Assembly: GCA_016235675.1 (NCBI GenBank)
Contig: JACRJN010000015.1
Coordinates: 1 to 51,489, forward strand
Direction: 5' to 3'
DNA: 51,489 nucleotides
Source: Candidatus Schekmanbacteria bacterium
GTDB lineage: Bacteria > SZUA-182
The first letter of the stretch is position 1. Each line of letters opens with the position of its first letter. Of this stretch, positions 2,043 through 51,165 are shown piece after piece. The notes beneath the pieces were generated by a model that was given only the letters and a program-made list of their open reading frames with translations, did not search any database and was not told where the DNA came from. The position numbers and the translations under genes were made by a program.

Positions 2043-4334
2043 TTACAACAACGGAATAATAAAAATGCGGAACCATTTGATATAATCCGGATAGGCGAAT
2101 GATTTTTTGAGCGGGGGCAATTTGGGTTGGGTTTTGGGTTTGGCCGGAGGTTTGGGTGCGGGGGCGGCGGGGCGGCTGACTTCACAAAGATCACCGATAC
2201 CGTTTTTGTCGGTATCGGTTTGATCGGGGTTGGCAATATGGGGGCAGTTGTCGCAGCTATCCGGCAGGCCGTCTTGATCGCTGTCTGTGCGTTCCAGTAG
2301 CGGAATTTCACCGTCGCAGTTGTTGTCCTGTCCGTCGCATAGTTCCGGAGCGCCGGAATAAACCCCGGCATCGCTGTCCAGGCAGTCCCCGGCTTGATTT
2401 ACATAGCCTTGAGGTGCAGTACAAGCCTCTATCGTATCGTTGGGATCGCCGAAGCCGTCCAAATCAGCGTCACGATAATAAATGGTTGTAAGTCCTTCGT
2501 CGATCAGTCCATCGCAATCGTTGTCCAGCCCGTCGCAAATTTCAACGGCCTGAGGGTTGACTTGAGCCTTGCCGTCATCGCAATCCGTATTATCAGGGAT
2601 AAAGCCGTTCGGGGGAGCGCAGGCGATCAGGATGTTGTGGGAATTGCCGAAACCGTCCTGGTCTGCATCCCGATAATAGACCTGGGTCAGACCTTCGTCG
2701 ATTAGACCGTTGCAATTGTTGTCCGCTTTATCGCATATTTCTTTTACGCCCGGATGAACGGCGCTATCGGTATCGTCGCAGTCAAGGTTATTGTCTACAT
2801 AATATGGGGGTGGGGCGCAGGCGCGGATGCTTTTAGAGGGATGGCCGAAGCCGTCCCGATCGCTATCAATATAATAGACGGCATCGCCCTGATCGTCGAC
2901 CAATCCGTTGCAGTCGTTGTCTTTACCGTCGCAGACCTCCTTTGCGCCGGGATAGATGGCGGCATCGTTATCGTTACAGTCCGGGGGATTTTTACAGCCT
3001 GAATCCTTGGGGAAGCCGTCGCCGTCCCGGTCCTGGCATAACAGACCGGCATATTCGTCTATCCCTATATCATATGCCTCATGCTGCGGGCGTTTATCGC
3101 CGTCAATATCTTCCGCTATCGATTCCAGGTAAGTACCGGCATTGATGCAGGGGGACTCGGAACGCAGGCGATAGCCATCGGAAAAATAGGGATAGGTGTT
3201 AATATTACCTTCCCCCGGCCAGCCGCCCTTGACGTCCGAATAAGCGATGTTCAGCACACTGCCGACGCTGAAGATTCCCTTTTGCGATTCAGGGGTATTA
3301 TTCCAGATAATGCTGTTGATAATGCGCAGATTGGAAAAGGAGAGGGAAAGGGCGCCGCCGTAAACAGAGGCTTTATTATTGATGAGGGTACAATTGAATA
3401 TATCGGGTGCGGAACGGTCGGTGCAGCTTATCCCGCCGCCGTAAGCAGTACTGTTTTCCGCTAACAGGCAATTGCCGATTAGCGGGGCGGCATAGGCGCA
3501 AAAAATCCCGCCGCCGTCCTGGGCCATATTGTGGCTGATGACGTTTTTAGAGATTTTAGGATTGGCTTGTTGAATACAGGCGATCCCGCCCCCGTAATGG
3601 GCGGAAGAATTCCCCTTTATTTGACAATTGGAAATTTGCGCTAAAGCGGTCACTTCCAAATATATCCCGCCGCCGTAGGCGGATGCCGAGTTATTGATGA
3701 TTTTGGTTTTTTTGATTTGCGGGGAGGCTCTGCGGATTAAAATCCCGCCGCCGTTTTTCCCTGCCGTATTGCTGGTTATGGTGCATTCGCTGATGATGCA
3801 ATCAGCCCTGTCGACGACGGCGATCCCGCCGCCTGATGCCGCGCTGTTAAAAACGACAATACAATTACTGATCTTTGGTTTTGCGCCCCAGAGACAAGCT
3901 ATTCCGCCGCCTGATTCGCCTGCGGTATTACTGGTTATGATGCAATCGCTGATGGTCGGGGATGAATTATAACAATAAATACCCCCGCCGTCTGAAGCAA
4001 AACCATTGCGGATAGTAAACCCGCTTAAAATCGTATCGGACTTTTCCCCGGATGCGAATTTTATCGCGCCCATACGGTTCTGGCCGTCGATAATTGTCGA
4101 CTCCGCACCGTTTTGGGAAAGCACTTCAATCTTTTTACCCTTGAAATTAAGCGCTTCGGAATAGATTCCCGAATTTACTATTATAACATCCCCGTTTTGC
4201 GCGTTATCGATGGCATTCTGGATAGTGTTAAAATCCTTCCCGGTTTTACCCACCTTTATTTCTGCGGCAATAACAAGCTGGTTATTAAGGATAAACATTG
4301 AAATGAGGAAAAATAATTTTAATTTATGTGGCAT
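2043..4334 (-). CDS. Exported parallel beta-helix protein with MopE-type metal-binding repeats and a thrombospondin type 3 segment
   Basis: The 763-residue protein has a signal peptide (about 1-24, ending VIAA). Residues 25-430 form a right-handed parallel beta-helix of about 22-residue coils (SGGGIACxxxAxPxISNCxI), starting with a typical IQNAIDNAQNGDVIIV cap and ending at DIGIDEYAG. Residues 431-677 hold four copies of the putative metal-binding (MopE-like) motif, each with an acidic DxDxDGFG stretch and a CDGxDNDCNG-type core. Residues 678-715 are a thrombospondin type 3 Ca-binding run (DSDQDGLPDSCDNCP). A Pro/Lys-rich linker follows, then a short hydrophobic tail ending IIPLL. The protein is likely a calcium- or copper-loaded surface or secreted structural protein. 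No catalytic motif was recognised. It has its own promoter at 4375-4403. The short tail could be a weak anchor or simply the end of the ORF. Confidence 0.92.
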   Translation of the reverse strand: MPHKLKLFFLISMFILNNQLVIAAEIKVGKTGKDFNTIQNAIDNAQNGDVIIVNSGIYSEALNFKGKKIEVLSQNGAESTIIDGQNRMGAIKFASGEKSDTILSGFTIRNGFASDGGGIYCYNSSPTISDCIITSNTAGESGGGIACLWGAKPKISNCIVVFNSAASGGGIAVVDRADCIISECTITSNTAGKNGGGILIRRASPQIKKTKIINNSASAYGGGIYLEVTALAQISNCQIKGNSSAHYGGGIACIQQANPKISKNVISHNMAQDGGGIFCAYAAPLIGNCLLAENSTAYGGGISCTDRSAPDIFNCTLINNKASVYGGALSLSFSNLRIINSIIWNNTPESQKGIFSVGSVLNIAYSDVKGGWPGEGNINTYPYFSDGYRLRSESPCINAGTYLESIAEDIDGDKRPQHEAYDIGIDEYAGLLCQDRDGDGFPKDSGCKNPPDCNDNDAAIYPGAKEVCDGKDNDCNGLVDDQGDAVYYIDSDRDGFGHPSKSIRACAPPPYYVDNNLDCDDTDSAVHPGVKEICDKADNNCNGLIDEGLTQVYYRDADQDGFGNSHNILIACAPPNGFIPDNTDCDDGKAQVNPQAVEICDGLDNDCDGLIDEGLTTIYYRDADLDGFGDPNDTIEACTAPQGYVNQAGDCLDSDAGVYSGAPELCDGQDNNCDGEIPLLERTDSDQDGLPDSCDNCPHIANPDQTDTDKNGIGDLCEVSRPAAPAPKPPAKPKTQPKLPPLKKSFAYPDYIKWFRIFIIPLL

Positions 4335-45498: not shown

Positions 45499-46503
45499 CT
45501 AACCAGCATAAATACACACCATATTCTTCCCGTTTTTTTTGGCTGCATAAAGGGCTTGGTCGGCTTTTTGGATTAATTGCTCACGATTTTGAGCATCTTT
45601 TGGGTATTCGGCTATTCCCATACTAATAGTGAACCTACCGATCGGTAAAAGTTCCTCGTGTTCGAACTTAGTTTCCTCAACCACCTTTCTGATCCGGTTG
45701 GCCATATGTTCGGCGCCTTGTTTGGTTACATTCGGCAAAATAACCGCGAATTCCTCTCCCCCGTAACGGGCTACAAAATCACAATCGCGGGAATTCTCCT
45801 TCAACAGCCAGGAGAGCTTTTTCAAAGCCAGGTCTCCGATGGGATGACCGTTTTTATCGTTGAATAATTTAAAGTTATCAATATCGATCATAATCAGACT
45901 GACGGGATGATTTTCCCGATCGGAACGGGCGATTTCTATTTGCATTAATTGTTGAAAGAAACGGTGATTGAAAAGATCGGTCAGCCCGTCGAGTTGGGAA
46001 AGTTTTTTATAAAAAACGGATTCATCCGCTTTCCTGCGTAAAGATCGTTGTTCTGAGGTTTTATTCACAATTATCCTTATTTGATCGATGTTTAAAGGCT
46101 TGGTTAAATAATCGATTGCTCCCAGTTTCATGGATTCCACCGCGGTGTTTACCGAGGCATACCCGGTCATGACGATCACATCCACATCGGGGGTATTTTC
46201 TTTGATTTTTTTCAATAATTCCATGCCGTTCATCCCCTTCATTTTTACATCGGTAATTACAATGGAAATCCCGCCGGACAAGACCTTTTGCAAGGCATCT
46301 TCCGCCCGGGGAAAACTGGATACGGTATAACCTTCCTCAGACAAAACATCGGATAACAAATGGCGCATGATTTCTTCGTCATCCACCACCAACACCTTGC
46401 TTACGGTATGTTCATTTATCTGGTTTTTTTCACCGTTGGGATCGATCTGTTCCAAGAGCTTATTAGTCTCGCTTCGAACTATCTTTAGTTCCTCGTTTAA
46501 CAT
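45499..46503 (-). CDS. Response regulator with GGDEF diguanylate cyclase domain
   Basis: The 334-residue cytoplasmic protein makes cyclic di-GMP from two GTP. A receiver domain (about 36-150) shows the acidic pair D41/D42, phosphoacceptor D85 (VITDVKM), T113 and K135. The GGDEF domain (about 165-334) has the metal-binding MIDIDNFK segment, the active signature GGEEF (249-253) and the product-inhibition I-site R240-DC-D243 exactly five residues ahead, so it should be active and feedback inhibited. A ~35-residue N-terminal extension precedes the receiver domain. A strong Shine-Dalgarno (AGGAGGG) supports the start. It lies 44 bp downstream of the histidine kinase gene and is probably co-transcribed, so the receiver is the expected output of that pathway. 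The wider layout resembles PleD/WspR-type regulators, but with a single receiver domain. Confidence 0.95.
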   Translation of the reverse strand: MLNEELKIVRSETNKLLEQIDPNGEKNQINEHTVSKVLVVDDEEIMRHLLSDVLSEEGYTVSSFPRAEDALQKVLSGGISIVITDVKMKGMNGMELLKKIKENTPDVDVIVMTGYASVNTAVESMKLGAIDYLTKPLNIDQIRIIVNKTSEQRSLRRKADESVFYKKLSQLDGLTDLFNHRFFQQLMQIEIARSDRENHPVSLIMIDIDNFKLFNDKNGHPIGDLALKKLSWLLKENSRDCDFVARYGGEEFAVILPNVTKQGAEHMANRIRKVVEETKFEHEELLPIGRFTISMGIAEYPKDAQNREQLIQKADQALYAAKKNGKNMVCIYAG

Positions 46504-46547: not shown

Positions 46548-48029
46548 CTAAGCTGCGTTCAAATTTAGATTAACGGGTAAAACAAGGTAAATTATATTTC
46601 CCTGATCGGGTTTACTTTCCACCTGCATATTCCCCTGATGGGATTTGATTATTTCAGCGCTGGCCGATAAATCTGAACTCTCCTGGGTGACACCTTGTCC
46701 GCCAGCGGAAAAAATAATTTCAATATGGTTATCAGCCTTTGATTTAGTAACGATAGAAAAATCTCCTCCCTCCGGCATAGCTTGGCGGGCATTATTAATC
46801 AAATTAATAAAAACCTGCTGCAACCGGTGGGAATCAGCATTTATATCAGGCAGGTTTTGGGCAAAATCGGTAATCAGATTGATATGCTGATTTTCTAATT
46901 GCCGGCGGAAAAACGAGAGTGTATCTTCAATTAATTGATTGATTTCCAGGGAGGAAACCCCGGTTTGTTCCGAATCAAGTGAGAGTTTAATCAGGTTTGC
47001 TGCCATATCCTTGCAGCGCTGAGCTTCTTTCCGGATATAGCCGAGAAAGGTTTCCGCGGATTTAAATTCATCGGGAGTAAAGTTAACCAAGCCCTGTTTA
47101 TGCTGTATCTTTTCCAAAATAAACTGGGAGTAGCCGAAAATGCCGCTTAACGGATTGTTTATTTCATGAGAAATACCGATCGCCAATTGACCGACGGCAT
47201 TTGATTGGCCGGAAAGTAACAATTGTTGCCGGAAACTTTTCAAGTCTTGTTGGGCGCTTTCTAGTTCCTGCGTTTTGATTTTAAGCAGTTGGTCGGATTC
47301 ACCGGATTTTTGTTTATAAGCTTGTAAATCCAAGATCAGTCGCTTAAATGTTTTGCCTGCCGATTCTATATCGGCATCAGGACGGTTTGTCTTCAGCGGT
47401 TCCTTCCCTTGCATTATATCTTCTGCATCCTGCGCCAGATTTTTTAATGACCTGACAAAGTGCCTGATTAAAATTAAGGACACTAAAGAGATACCTAAAC
47501 CGGACAATAAAACCACACCGGTTATTATCTTGTTATATTTGTTGATTGACTTTGCCAAAATACTATCGGAAAAACCGATGTGGATGGTGCCTAAACGGCT
47601 TTTCAGGATATTTTGCGCCAGATCATAAACCCCGCCTTGGCCGATTTCGTTGTTTAAATAAAAGTGGGCCAGTTTTGTATCGGTATTTGCCTCTATACGG
47701 TTATATTTATCTATTTGATAAGCGTAATTAAAGGGGATGGTGCCGGAGATAATTTTCCCCCGGTTGTCCGCAAAAAAAATATACAGTATAGCGGTATTTT
47801 CCTGCATAATTTGATAAATCAATAAATCGAATTGAGCGCTTTCCTCGGTTAAGGCACATTGAGCCGCTTTTTTCCCGATAAGTTGGGCGACAATCCTGCC
47901 GGTACGCATTATTTGTTCGCTAAAACCGGTATTAAAAATTTTTTTAGCGATTAATACTGTAGAGAGTGCTATGGCGATAGTTCCGATTAGTATACAAGCC
48001 ATAATTTTATTTTGAATCCCGATACGCAT
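46548..48029 (-). CDS. Membrane sensor histidine kinase with degenerate ATP-binding domain
   Basis: The 493-residue protein has TM1 (about 9-28), a periplasmic sensor of about 135 residues (Cache-like by size and position), TM2 (about 168-190), a HAMP-like segment (to about 240), a coiled coil (240-275), and a DHp domain with the intact H-box GISHEINNPL (His288). The N-box is present (INNARQAM, N413). After it the catalytic domain is abnormal: the G1 position reads FSAGGQGV (441-447) where DxGxG is expected, the F-box is missing, and the GTGLGL G2 loop is replaced by ESSDLSASAEIIK. The end (NMQVESKP, YLVLPV) is normal. There is no frameshift. ATP use is therefore doubtful; it may act as a phosphatase, a partner for another kinase, or a ligand-gated scaffold. 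The gene sits between the PhnD-like lipoprotein and the GGDEF regulator. Confidence 0.9.
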   Translation of the reverse strand: MRIGIQNKIMACILIGTIAIALSTVLIAKKIFNTGFSEQIMRTGRIVAQLIGKKAAQCALTEESAQFDLLIYQIMQENTAILYIFFADNRGKIISGTIPFNYAYQIDKYNRIEANTDTKLAHFYLNNEIGQGGVYDLAQNILKSRLGTIHIGFSDSILAKSINKYNKIITGVVLLSGLGISLVSLILIRHFVRSLKNLAQDAEDIMQGKEPLKTNRPDADIESAGKTFKRLILDLQAYKQKSGESDQLLKIKTQELESAQQDLKSFRQQLLLSGQSNAVGQLAIGISHEINNPLSGIFGYSQFILEKIQHKQGLVNFTPDEFKSAETFLGYIRKEAQRCKDMAANLIKLSLDSEQTGVSSLEINQLIEDTLSFFRRQLENQHINLITDFAQNLPDINADSHRLQQVFINLINNARQAMPEGGDFSIVTKSKADNHIEIIFSAGGQGVTQESSDLSASAEIIKSHQGNMQVESKPDQGNIIYLVLPVNLNLNAA

Positions 48030-48060
48030 CTAATAATCCTAATTTAAGAAATACTTTTTT

Positions 48061-48370
48061 CACCACGAAGCACACGAAGATCACGAAGGGAAAAAATAAA
48101 ATAGTTTAATTAAATATCATAAATACTTATCTTATTTTTTTACCTTTTTTCAAGCTGTAAACTTTTGGTAGCGTAGAGATACCGCAGACCTGAAGCGTCA
48201 TTGCGAGCGAAGCGAAGCAATCTCCATGCGTGCACATGAGATTGCTTCGGCGATAAGGCTGCCTCGCTTTTGACGCTTTGGGTCTCTGATTGAGAACGCC
48301 ACCAACTTTTTACCTTTGGCTGCATTCGCGTAAAAAATAGCATTTGTAATTCTTCGTGCGCTTCGTGGTG
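48061..48370. repeat. Outer inverted repeat of a nested palindromic element
   Basis: CACCACGAAGCACACGAAGA (48061-48080) and TCTTCGTGCGCTTCGTGGTG (48351-48370) are inverted copies with one mismatch. A second palindrome with arms near 48157-48200 and 48271-48314 lies inside, and that holds the family 2 core. No gene is visible in the 361 bp gap between the kinase and the PhnD-like gene. Confidence 0.8.
48195..48276. repeat. Family 2 palindromic repeat, second copy
   Basis: GCGTCATTGCGAGCGAAGCG at the left and CTCGCTTTTGACGC at the right, with GAAGCAATCTC and GAGATTGCTTC inside, match the copy at 4904-4988, including the CGGCG-TAAGGCTGC segment. It forms the core of the nested element at 48061-48370. 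Confidence 0.8.
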
Positions 48371-48390
48371 AAAAGAAATTTACCCACAGT

Positions 48391-49329
48391 TTATCGCCAT
48401 GAGCCGTTTTTTGCCAGATAGCTTTTTACTTCCCGTAAGTCGTTGTACATACTGTCATCCACTTCGACAAAGCGGTCGATACGCATATTTTTTAGAATTT
48501 CACGGCCGGCGTTATCCTGATGAATGGCAAGGAAGGTCTCTCTTATTTTAGCTTCCAGTTGGGGGTTGAGGTTTGGTCTGACTACCACGGGAACAGTACT
48601 GTAAGGCTTCGATGTGGCCAGAATTTTGGTTTTTGCCGTGTCTTGCGGATCGAATTGGTTCAAATAGTCCCAAATCAGGCTATCGACCGCGGCCGCATCG
48701 ACCAGTTTTGCTGCCACCATAGCTATCGATTTATCATGACTGCCGGAATAAACAAGCTCCTGGAAAAATTTTTCCGGCGGCACCCCGAATATTTTGACAA
48801 TTAGATAAGTCGGGATCAGACAACCTGAATTCGACAGCGGATCGCTGAATGCAAAACGTCGCCCCTTTAATTCGTCCAGTTTGCGGGTGGCCGAGTCTTT
48901 GTGAACAATAATATAAGAATGATAATGAACCGTCCCGTTTATTTGCGGAACAACCAATAATTTCAAACCGAACTCTTCATGACCGTCGATATAAGGGCGC
49001 CCGCAGACAAATGCCAGATCAATTTTGCCTTCTTTCAATAAGCGATTGACCTCCGAGTAAGATTCCTTGTCAATTACCGTTATCGACAGATCCAGTTTTT
49101 TTTCCAGATAATGAGCCAACTCATAATAATAACCATAAGCCTGTTTAGGTGTGGTCATAGCCCCTAAAGCCAGAATCAATCTCCGGGGAATTTGCGTTTT
49201 AGCGGCATCGGCATGGGGGATTATGGCATCGTCGATAGCAATTTGAATCTGATCGCTATCGCTGCAACCGGGGAAGGAAAAAAAGATCAACCCCGATAGT
49301 ATCCACAGGGAATATTTTTTTACTGACAT
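48391..49329 (-). CDS. PhnD-like periplasmic binding lipoprotein
   Basis: The 312-residue protein has a signal peptide with lipobox FPGC (Cys22) and, after a linker, a phosphonate/phosphite-type substrate-binding fold: LILALGAM near residue 52, LLKEGKIDLAFVCGRPY, YHSYIIVHKD, LKGRRFAFSDPLSNSG (the DPxSxSG motif, D163-G169), and a lobe-two stretch with AAKLVDAAAVDS. It resembles PhnD/PtxB-type proteins that bind small anions such as phosphonates or phosphite. No permease or ATPase gene is adjacent. Instead it is followed on the same strand by a sensor histidine kinase and a GGDEF regulator, so a ligand-sensing role is more likely than transport (inference). A clear Shine-Dalgarno (AGGAG) sits 6 nt before the ATG. 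The ligand cannot be deduced. Confidence 0.88.
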   Translation of the reverse strand: MSVKKYSLWILSGLIFFSFPGCSDSDQIQIAIDDAIIPHADAAKTQIPRRLILALGAMTTPKQAYGYYYELAHYLEKKLDLSITVIDKESYSEVNRLLKEGKIDLAFVCGRPYIDGHEEFGLKLLVVPQINGTVHYHSYIIVHKDSATRKLDELKGRRFAFSDPLSNSGCLIPTYLIVKIFGVPPEKFFQELVYSGSHDKSIAMVAAKLVDAAAVDSLIWDYLNQFDPQDTAKTKILATSKPYSTVPVVVRPNLNPQLEAKIRETFLAIHQDNAGREILKNMRIDRFVEVDDSMYNDLREVKSYLAKNGSWR

Positions 49330-49551: not shown

Positions 49552-51042
49552 CTAAAGCCTAATTGGGGTTGCATTTTGCGGCTCCTTGTTTAATAATCTC
49601 AAAAAGAAATCCACCAATTGCGGATGAAACTGGCTGCCTTTATTTTTTGTGAATTCTTGATTTATTTCTTCTGATGATAACGCCTTGCGATAGGCTCGGT
49701 CCGAACTCATGGCGTCATAAGAATCGGCAATAATAATTACCTGATTGGAAGGGGAGAGCGCCGCCCCGGAAATACCGTTCGGATAACCTTTACCGTCATA
49801 ACGTTCATGATGATGCAAAACAATCTGGCGCGCTTCGTCTAAAAATTTAAACGGTTTAAGGATATTTGCCCCGATAGCGGGATGGGTTTTTATGACTTCA
49901 TATTCTTCGGGAGTGAGTTTGCCGGGTTTGTTTAAGATGTTTTCGCTGATGGCCAGTTTGCCGATGTCATGCAATACCGCGCCGTATTTCAAATTATTCA
50001 ACTCTTGTTTGCCCAGCCCGATGGCATGACCCAAACGTAAACAAACGCTGGTAACCCGGTGCGTATGACCGCGCAGATAAACATCGCGCGCTTCGGTCAA
50101 GGCCACCATAAATTGCATGATGCCTAAATAGATTCCGTTTAAATCGGATAAAAGCCTGTTGTTATCAATCGCGATAGCCGCCTGTACGGCCAGGATGGAT
50201 AATAATTCCAGATCGGCCTGGTTAAAGGGCATACCGTTAATCTTTTTACGCAGATTGATTACCCCGATGGTATGTTTGGAGGTAGACAAAGGCAATGAAA
50301 TCAATTCATCATCGATACCCATGGAGGCGCTGATAAATGATTTGTCGGGATAATCACGCGCTAATTTACAAAACAAGGGGTGGGCGTCTATATTGGAAAC
50401 CAAAACGGGTTTGCCTCCCTGAATGACCTTTCCGGCGATGCACTCATTAAGCGCTACCGGTTTTTGGGTGACATCTTCATCCAGACCCACGGCGGCGGCG
50501 ATTTTCAGTGTCTTGGCCTTTTCGTCCAATAACATTATCGAGCCTTGACTGACATGCAATTGTTTGAGAATGGAACTGAGAATCAACTCATATAAACTTT
50601 GGGTGGAAAAGCGGGAAGAGATTAATTCGCTGAATTGGAACAGGCCGGTCAATTCTTTCAGGCGGTTATTTTCTTCTTCCAGCTCTTTGCGTTTAATGGC
50701 ATTTTTTACCGCAAGCCGTAAGGTGTCGTTGTTAAAAGGTTTCAGGATGTAATCATAAGCCCCTTCCTTAATCGCGGTCTGCGCCGTTTCAATATTCCCG
50801 AATCCGGTCATAATGATGGCTTTAGTCTTGGGGCTGAACTGCCTCATTTGTTTAATGACATCCAATCCGGTCATTTTAGGCATCTTAATGTCGGTAATCA
50901 GCAGATCAAAACCGGCTGTTTTCAAACTCTCCAGCGCGCCTGACGGGTTGTTAACGGGGGTAATTTCATAGCCTTCATCGAGTAATAAATCGCTGGTCAG
51001 GCTTAAGATAACCGGGTCATCGTCTAATACCAGAATTTTCAT
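49552..51042 (-). CDS. Response regulator with GAF and HD-GYP c-di-GMP phosphodiesterase domains
   Basis: The 496-residue protein degrades cyclic di-GMP. Numbered from the chosen start, the receiver domain (1-120) has D7/D8 and phosphoacceptor D51 (ITDIKMP) and the LKPF lysine. A coiled linker leads to a GAF domain (about 140-295). The HD-GYP domain (about 310-485) has H358-D359 (LHDIGKL) and the full HHERYDGKGYP motif (411-421), so it should be catalytically competent. An in-frame ATG 42 bp further upstream (51084) exists, but it has no ribosome site and adds residues ahead of the receiver's first strand; the ATG at 51042 is preceded by AAGGGG and gives the canonical MKILVLDDD start. It is the first gene of the minus-strand signalling group and opposes the GGDEF regulator at the other end. 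Confidence 0.95.
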   Translation of the reverse strand: MKILVLDDDPVILSLTSDLLLDEGYEITPVNNPSGALESLKTAGFDLLITDIKMPKMTGLDVIKQMRQFSPKTKAIIMTGFGNIETAQTAIKEGAYDYILKPFNNDTLRLAVKNAIKRKELEEENNRLKELTGLFQFSELISSRFSTQSLYELILSSILKQLHVSQGSIMLLDEKAKTLKIAAAVGLDEDVTQKPVALNECIAGKVIQGGKPVLVSNIDAHPLFCKLARDYPDKSFISASMGIDDELISLPLSTSKHTIGVINLRKKINGMPFNQADLELLSILAVQAAIAIDNNRLLSDLNGIYLGIMQFMVALTEARDVYLRGHTHRVTSVCLRLGHAIGLGKQELNNLKYGAVLHDIGKLAISENILNKPGKLTPEEYEVIKTHPAIGANILKPFKFLDEARQIVLHHHERYDGKGYPNGISGAALSPSNQVIIIADSYDAMSSDRAYRKALSSEEINQEFTKNKGSQFHPQLVDFFLRLLNKEPQNATPIRL

Positions 51043-51165
51043 AAGACACCCCTTGCCAGTGCGATTCGTCGCATGGCTATACATATTCAGTGTTATACAG
51101 AGAGCAATTATCGTGCCCTATGCAGGTTTTTATGGTTATATATAAGTTACAATTCAAGACGTTGC

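Follow-up and report, generated by a model that had tools for sequence, protein, structure and literature searches.

A histidine kinase-like protein lacking its ATP lid beside a diguanylate cyclase regulator: a candidate pseudokinase antagonist

What can a sensor kinase still do for its response regulator once its ATP site has gone? This question is raised by a locus of a Candidatus Schekmanbacteria bacterium, contained in a stretch of 51,489 nucleotides (the window; contig JACRJN010000015.1 of assembly GCA_016235675.1), in which the gene for a kinase-like protein with a HisKA and a lidless HATPase_c domain, P0001, precedes that for an intact REC-GGDEF response regulator. An earlier note on this DNA had described P0001 as a histidine kinase with a normal H-box (His288) and N-box, a replaced G1 Asp, and an F-box and G2 loop deleted without frameshift, and had suggested that it acts as a pseudokinase switch or a phosphatase. 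This description turned out to be right in all the details that we examined, coordinates included.

The locus and the domains of P0001

The order of transcription on the minus strand is a REC-GAF-HD-GYP response regulator, which by its Pfam domains is a putative c-di-GMP phosphodiesterase (49552..51084), a PhnD-like periplasmic substrate-binding protein (48391..49329; PF12974 at 224 bits, TIGR01098 above its cut-off), which is a possible ligand input, P0001 (46548..48029) and the partner REC-GGDEF regulator (45499..46503), a diguanylate cyclase by its Pfam domains and motifs. The gap between the gene of P0001 and that of its partner is 44 bp. The receiver and cyclase motifs looked for in the partner are all present, i.e. 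DDE, TDVKM, VMTGY, TKP, the RxxD I-site that serves for inhibition, and GGEEF.

The frame of P0001 is open over 493 amino acids. Pfam detects HisKA at residues 280-350 (35.6 bits, above the cut-off of 26.9) and HATPase_c at residues 399-486 (35.2 bits, also above its cut-off), with profile positions 2-109 of the latter packed into just 88 residues. A profile search of the genome contigs again gave 264 bp for positions 2-109, and the score of P0001 was the second lowest among the 21 genome matches, the lowest being that of MutL. On the N-terminal side, all on the minus strand, we recognized by eye a first transmembrane helix (residues 8-28, 47946..48008; a helix of low confidence in the AlphaFold2 model) and a second one (residues 168-192, 47454..47528), which is followed by a HAMP-like linker. 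They enclose a putative periplasmic sensor with a weak resemblance to sCache_3_2 (residues 38-163, 47541..47918; E 0.063, 13.8 bits, under the cut-off of 28.4). The DHp domain (residues 262-358, 46956..47246) was delimited from Pfam, the alignment and AlphaFold2, and the lidless CA domain (residues 361-487, 46569..46949) from these and from fold comparison.

The alignment places the phospho-acceptor H288 within SHEINNPL, where it is followed by the ExxN motif (H288 E289 I N N292; 47154..47168, minus strand). In HisKA kinases, the T/N residue of the E/DxxT/N motif is needed for phosphatase activity, according to the available text of the source (PMC3510030), and the motif is present in P0001 as E289-N292. 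The N-box region (residues 400-417, 46779..46832, minus strand), with the sequence NLINNARQAM, retains N409 and N413.

Between the PhnD-like gene and the kinase gene sits a mobile-repeat insertion of 318 bp (48057..48374), identified from the sequence by its 24-bp terminal inverted repeats, with a second repeat nested within it. It ends 27 bp before the start codon of the kinase. The genome contains 59 copies of its terminal motif, as compared with 0 for the reversed control, and the nested inner repeat, of ~140 bp, has close to 40 further copies. The outer element is found without the inner one at G000:C47:4253-4422, where the flanks overlap by 7 bp, as expected of a target-site duplication.

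Elsewhere in the window, positions 5009-45280 of the plus strand form one open reading frame that codes for 13,423 amino acids. By eye, this giant protein, which is probably secreted, comprises parallel beta-helix-type, LamG-like and fibronectin-like repeats, a propeller-like C-terminus and a hydrophobic N-terminal stretch. The other end of the contig encodes an ankyrin-repeat protein (352-2031) and a MopE/Chlam_PMP-type repeat protein (2043-4334).

Extent and distribution of the ATP-site loss

The G1 box reads FADTGCGI in the orthologous kinase of genome G003 and FSAGGQGV in P0001 (residues 440-447, 46689..46712, minus strand), A442 replacing the Asp. At the D453/L454 junction (46670..46671, minus strand), 19 residues of the G003 orthologue (KLFDPFFTTKPVGEGTGLG) are absent in frame. 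In the alignment with related kinases, this stretch holds the F-box, the ATP lid and the G2 motif GTGLG. G1, F and G2 are normal in both orthologues, those of G003 and G005.

A further alignment was made of P0001 with 67 homologues from viral contigs (68 rows; the homologues were hand-listed from 80 loci, 13 seeming duplicates or partial sequences being omitted). At the 25 columns that are conserved to at least 90% in these homologues, P0001 keeps 14 residues, substitutes 2 (A287S and D442A) and lacks 9; the median number of departures in the 67 others is 0, and the worst row departs at 7 columns, with a single gap among them. Each of the 19 further HATPase kinase genes detected in this genome codes for a lid that carries a G2-like Gly motif, and 18 of them retain the G1 Asp, L011 having Asn. 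As judged from these alignments, the departure of P0001 from its family at the ATP motifs is well beyond chance. The loss of G1, F and G2, combined with what is known of the family, indicates that P0001 is very likely dead as an autokinase, in keeping with the expectation of the earlier note. It would probably make no more phosphate signal and could at most relay or erase one.

Structure prediction, which the earlier note had advised, yielded a Bergerat-type CA fold without a lid. In the AlphaFold2 model (67 homologues; mean pLDDT 64, pTM 0.52), block pLDDT values were 80-97 over residues 361-490, the minimum of 80 being at 441-450, where G1 lies, and 59-89 in the DHp domain; they were low in the sensor part. 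Since the homologues in the input carry lids, the alignment may favour the fold, and we therefore speak of a predicted lidless Bergerat domain. The model could be superimposed on the CA domain of ThkA (Z 20.1, rmsd 2.1 over 134 residues), on DivL (4q20_B; Z 19.0, rmsd 3.8 over 160 residues) and on RetS (Z 18.5, rmsd 8.1 over 167 residues). ChpT and Spo0B were absent among the 50 fold matches listed, an absence that carries no weight as evidence.

On present sequences, the lid loss is private to the P0001 lineage among the nine genomes of the class, and is not a conserved trait. It is known from this one genome, a draft of 190 contigs and 89.65% completeness, so that local decay has to be reckoned with. 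A search of 386 genomes with the CA fragment, in which at most 13 candidates per genome were scored, did not find a conserved family of lidless kinases. The matches listed fall into two groups: those that end at or shortly past G1, and the five that reach query residue 92 or beyond, whose 16-24 extra residues are a lid. At E 1e-7, the CA fragment found a match in 49 of the 386 genomes, the host genome counted. With the full protein, the scan of the genome_contigs set gave just three matches, all distant, a first scan of the viral_contigs set gave one, and a plasmid scan gave no match over 80% of the query. A literature search, for which subscription journals were mostly out of reach, found no account of a sensor kinase without a lid.

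Evolution of the kinase-regulator pair and a candidate phosphate donor

Within the nine genomes of the class, the partner REC-GGDEF regulator has two close relatives, in G003 (64%) and G005 (65%), the next matches spanning both domains reaching 36% at most. A HisKA kinase is encoded directly upstream of the regulator in both genomes, and its core matches P0001 better than any other (46%); the same pair is thus found in three genomes, which bears out the view that the receiver adjacent to P0001 is its cognate one. A small gene, which reads PstS-like, is found upstream in G003 and G005 in place of the PhnD-like one, and neither genome gave a match to the PhnD-like protein at E 1e-10. The sensor regions of the two kinases are also longer than that of P0001. 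Since G003 and G005 share the pair, differ in the sensor and the binding-protein gene, and keep the ATP motifs, this comparison indicates that the pair is old, that its input has been exchanged and that the ATP site was lost in the P0001 lineage alone among the nine genomes.

In the active orthologues (L076, 6436-8820; L077, 7465-9780), HAMP and DHp are separated by an insert rich in Cys and Trp (NCWEVKxCN...). This insert may be a metal or haem site and is missing from P0001. A second PhnD-like protein, 46% identical to the first, is encoded near another kinase gene (G000:C119:854-1657 and 3286-4023; L181 and L017), suggesting that the arrangement of a binding protein and a kinase is repeated. 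Another set of binding protein, kinase and regulator is found in a distant genome (L079, G032:C99, 7782-11577), where a related kinase comes after a 624-residue protein that reads as a PstS-like and a PhnD-like part and has a haem-type motif, CxxCH. An NtrC-type regulator is encoded downstream there.

To the core alignment, 27 loci were submitted; 2 had no reading frame and 4 no core, which left 21 plus 4 focal rows. Conservation counts and trees were based on 20 plus 4 rows, after removal of L032 for a masked run. The regulators of the three genomes are equidistant (199/296, 198/296 and 201/296 identities), whereas the kinase core of the host shares 97/205 and 94/203 residues with those of G003 and G005, which share 140/203 with each other. 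On a fixed topology, the end branch of the host was 0.90 for the kinase (0.18 and 0.29 for the two others) and 0.13 for the regulator (0.24 and 0.25). At the sites where G003 and G005 agree, the host has another residue in 61 of 145 cases for the kinase core and in 29 of 193 for the regulator (Fisher p 3e-8). With three outgroups, the relative-rate counts of host to G003 ranged from 14:5 to 18:4 in DHp and from 19:13 to 23:9 in CA, the weakest contrast being that of CA with outgroup L041 (19:13). By these measures, the kinase core is accelerated on the host branch, in DHp and CA alike, and the partner regulator is not.

Family-conserved positions of the DHp have changed in P0001 (A284I, L347I, F349L and R351L), which favours a relaxed or altered constraint. 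Outside the ATP motifs, the CA domain retains all 12 of the columns that are conserved to at least 90% in 20 relatives, which argues that the CA shell is still under a need to fold. The CA part also retains a coding-type base composition per codon position (0.515/0.299/0.388).

These data allowed us to reconsider two statements of the earlier note. A conserved pseudokinase switch finds no support, the loss being absent from the G003 and G005 orthologues. The note had also taken normal motifs in orthologues as a mark of sequencing error or local decay. The motifs are indeed normal there, and of these two readings local decay is possible; sequencing error is not indicated, because the loss accompanies an acceleration that is peculiar to this genome and extends over the entire kinase core. 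The substitution, the in-frame deletion and the gene-wide divergence, taken together, rule out a simple sequencing error as the main reading.

If P0001 no longer makes phosphate signal, another kinase might serve its regulator. The best paralogue of P0001 in the genome is a kinase with a complete ATP site (C172:3830-5530). A gene for an ABC_sub_bind-like protein (read by eye) lies upstream of it, and there is no response regulator among its neighbours, on a contig that begins ~3.8 kb upstream. In a free tree, made without support values, the core of C172 rather than that of P0001 falls beside the G003 and G005 kinases, so that the orthology of P0001 to the latter rests on gene order. The placement of C172 may be due to long-branch attraction, or C172 may be the true core orthologue.

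We then compared the six positions that we take to be the specificity determinants of the DHp (offsets +7, +8, +11, +12, +15 and +16 from the His), which were readable in 17 of the genome's 19 other kinase genes, C172 among them. They read SGGYFI in P0001 and GGGYFI in G003, G005 and C172. Only C172 shares 5/6 with P0001; the other 16 kinases share at most 3/6. These positions suggest that P0001 may have retained the docking of its regulator. Under either reading of the tree, C172 would be the obvious choice as the kinase that phosphorylates the REC-GGDEF regulator.

Possible roles and comparison with known systems

We tentatively propose, giving it not quite an even chance, that P0001 is an ATP-dead pseudokinase kept as an antagonist of the diguanylate cyclase. 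A once active HisKA kinase would have lost its grip on ATP through the replacement of the G1 Asp and the deletion of the F-box, lid and G2, and would have retained its sensor, its dimerization and histidine domain, and a folded CA shell. It would dock the neighbouring REC-GGDEF regulator via its DHp face and either strip the phosphate from it or sequester it. The periplasmic sensor would control P0001, perhaps jointly with the PhnD-like binding protein. A different kinase would supply the regulator with phosphate, the likeliest being C172, the orphan paralogue, and the net result would be a brake on the c-di-GMP synthase. The four DHp departures would count against such an antagonist, and a relaxed constraint would produce the same changes.

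We also considered a two-sensor c-di-GMP switch that arose through duplication, in which C172 would drive the cyclase and the lid-excised P0001 would be an ATP-independent, ligand-gated phosphatase responding to a different ligand. C172 lies beside another type of binding protein, and push and pull on one regulator would then answer different ligands. We regard this as rather unlikely.

The main and serious rival of the antagonist proposal is decay, which we hold to be a real, though doubtful, possibility. The kinase would have become redundant, as C172 may serve the same regulator, would have lost its ATP site and would be drifting, so far free of stops. The acceleration of DHp and CA on the host branch, the absence of the loss from the orthologues and the mobile repeat 27 bp upstream of the start, which splits the kinase gene from the binding-protein gene, all speak for this reading. 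Yet 493 codons are open, the deletion is in frame, the composition of the CA part and its 12/12 columns are maintained, and so is the pairing with an intact REC-GGDEF regulator.

Next comes phosphotransfer, which we consider improbable. Here, H288 would be phosphorylated by the receiver of another kinase or in trans and would hand the phosphate on to the REC-GGDEF regulator, as in ChpT, Spo0B and PhyT. ChpT and PhyT display the same pattern, a retained His and a lost ATP pocket, as far as the available texts on them go. P0001 also matches the HPTransfase family of ChpT (PF10090; E 0.23), but its 11.7 bits lie under the cut-off of 22.9, so that membership was rejected, and no stand-alone receiver or hybrid kinase was identified as an upstream donor.

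A still-active kinase with an unusual nucleotide site would be in line with the retained N-box and GxG of G1 but is very hard to believe, the joint loss of the G1 Asp and the whole lid and G2 being unmatched in the 19 other kinases of the genome and the 67 homologues. An assembly or sequencing artefact is just as remote: the genome is a draft, but it would take a base substitution together with a clean in-frame loss of 57 nt, in a gene that has diverged across its core.

By sequence and structure, the nearest active relatives of P0001 are HisKA kinases of the ZraS, AtoS and ThkA type, which keep the G1, F and G2 motifs that P0001 has lost. Degenerate kinases offer closer parallels. ChpT, unlike P0001, is not known to have a sensor or membrane part. 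The available text on ChpT of Caulobacter describes a dimeric DHp with a Bergerat fold that has no ATP lid and does not autophosphorylate, a likeness to P0001; in ChpT, additional turns of a helix take the place of the lid (PMC3433190), which in P0001 is deleted. PhyT/PhyP of Sphingomonas melonis resembles P0001 in being a membrane-anchored degenerate kinase, with a periplasmic sensor, a phospho-His and a degenerate ATPase, encoded at the locus of its regulator; the accessible part of the paper states that it was first called a phosphatase and later shown to be a phosphotransferase (PMC5898713). It differs by its HRxxN-type DHp and its regulator, PhyR of the general stress response, P0001 having a HisKA HExxN motif and a diguanylate cyclase as partner. 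The relabelling of PhyT calls for caution before settling on the word phosphatase for P0001.

DivL of Caulobacter is a pseudokinase that retains the kinase fold and the face that docks response regulators; it has lost both kinase and phosphatase activity and senses a phosphorylated regulator, according to the part of the text available (PMC4211667). In contrast to P0001, with its His288 and no lid, DivL has Tyr in place of His and keeps its lid. In the laboratory-evolved ChrS-Ala245fs of Corynebacterium glutamicum, CA is destroyed by a frameshift and DHp is kept; the paralogous HrrS phosphorylates the partner regulator and alone switches on the target genes, and the protein appeared phosphatase-defective, as related in the accessible text (PMC9491836). 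The change in P0001 is natural and in frame. Since DivL lost both activities and ChrS with a broken CA seemed phosphatase-defective, phosphatase activity does not necessarily survive the breaking of a CA domain. DrBphP is a phosphatase for which kinase activity has not been detected, according to the available portion of a review (PMC12189002).

If P0001 is decaying, it offers a snapshot of a two-component pair shedding its kinase with its output enzyme intact. If it is functional, a single in-frame excision would have turned a sensor kinase into a dedicated antagonist, a paralogue taking over the kinase role, and P0001 would be the natural counterpart of laboratory kinases without CA. As degenerate kinases that retain their His are already known, P0001 would belong to a known kind, tied here to c-di-GMP enzymes.
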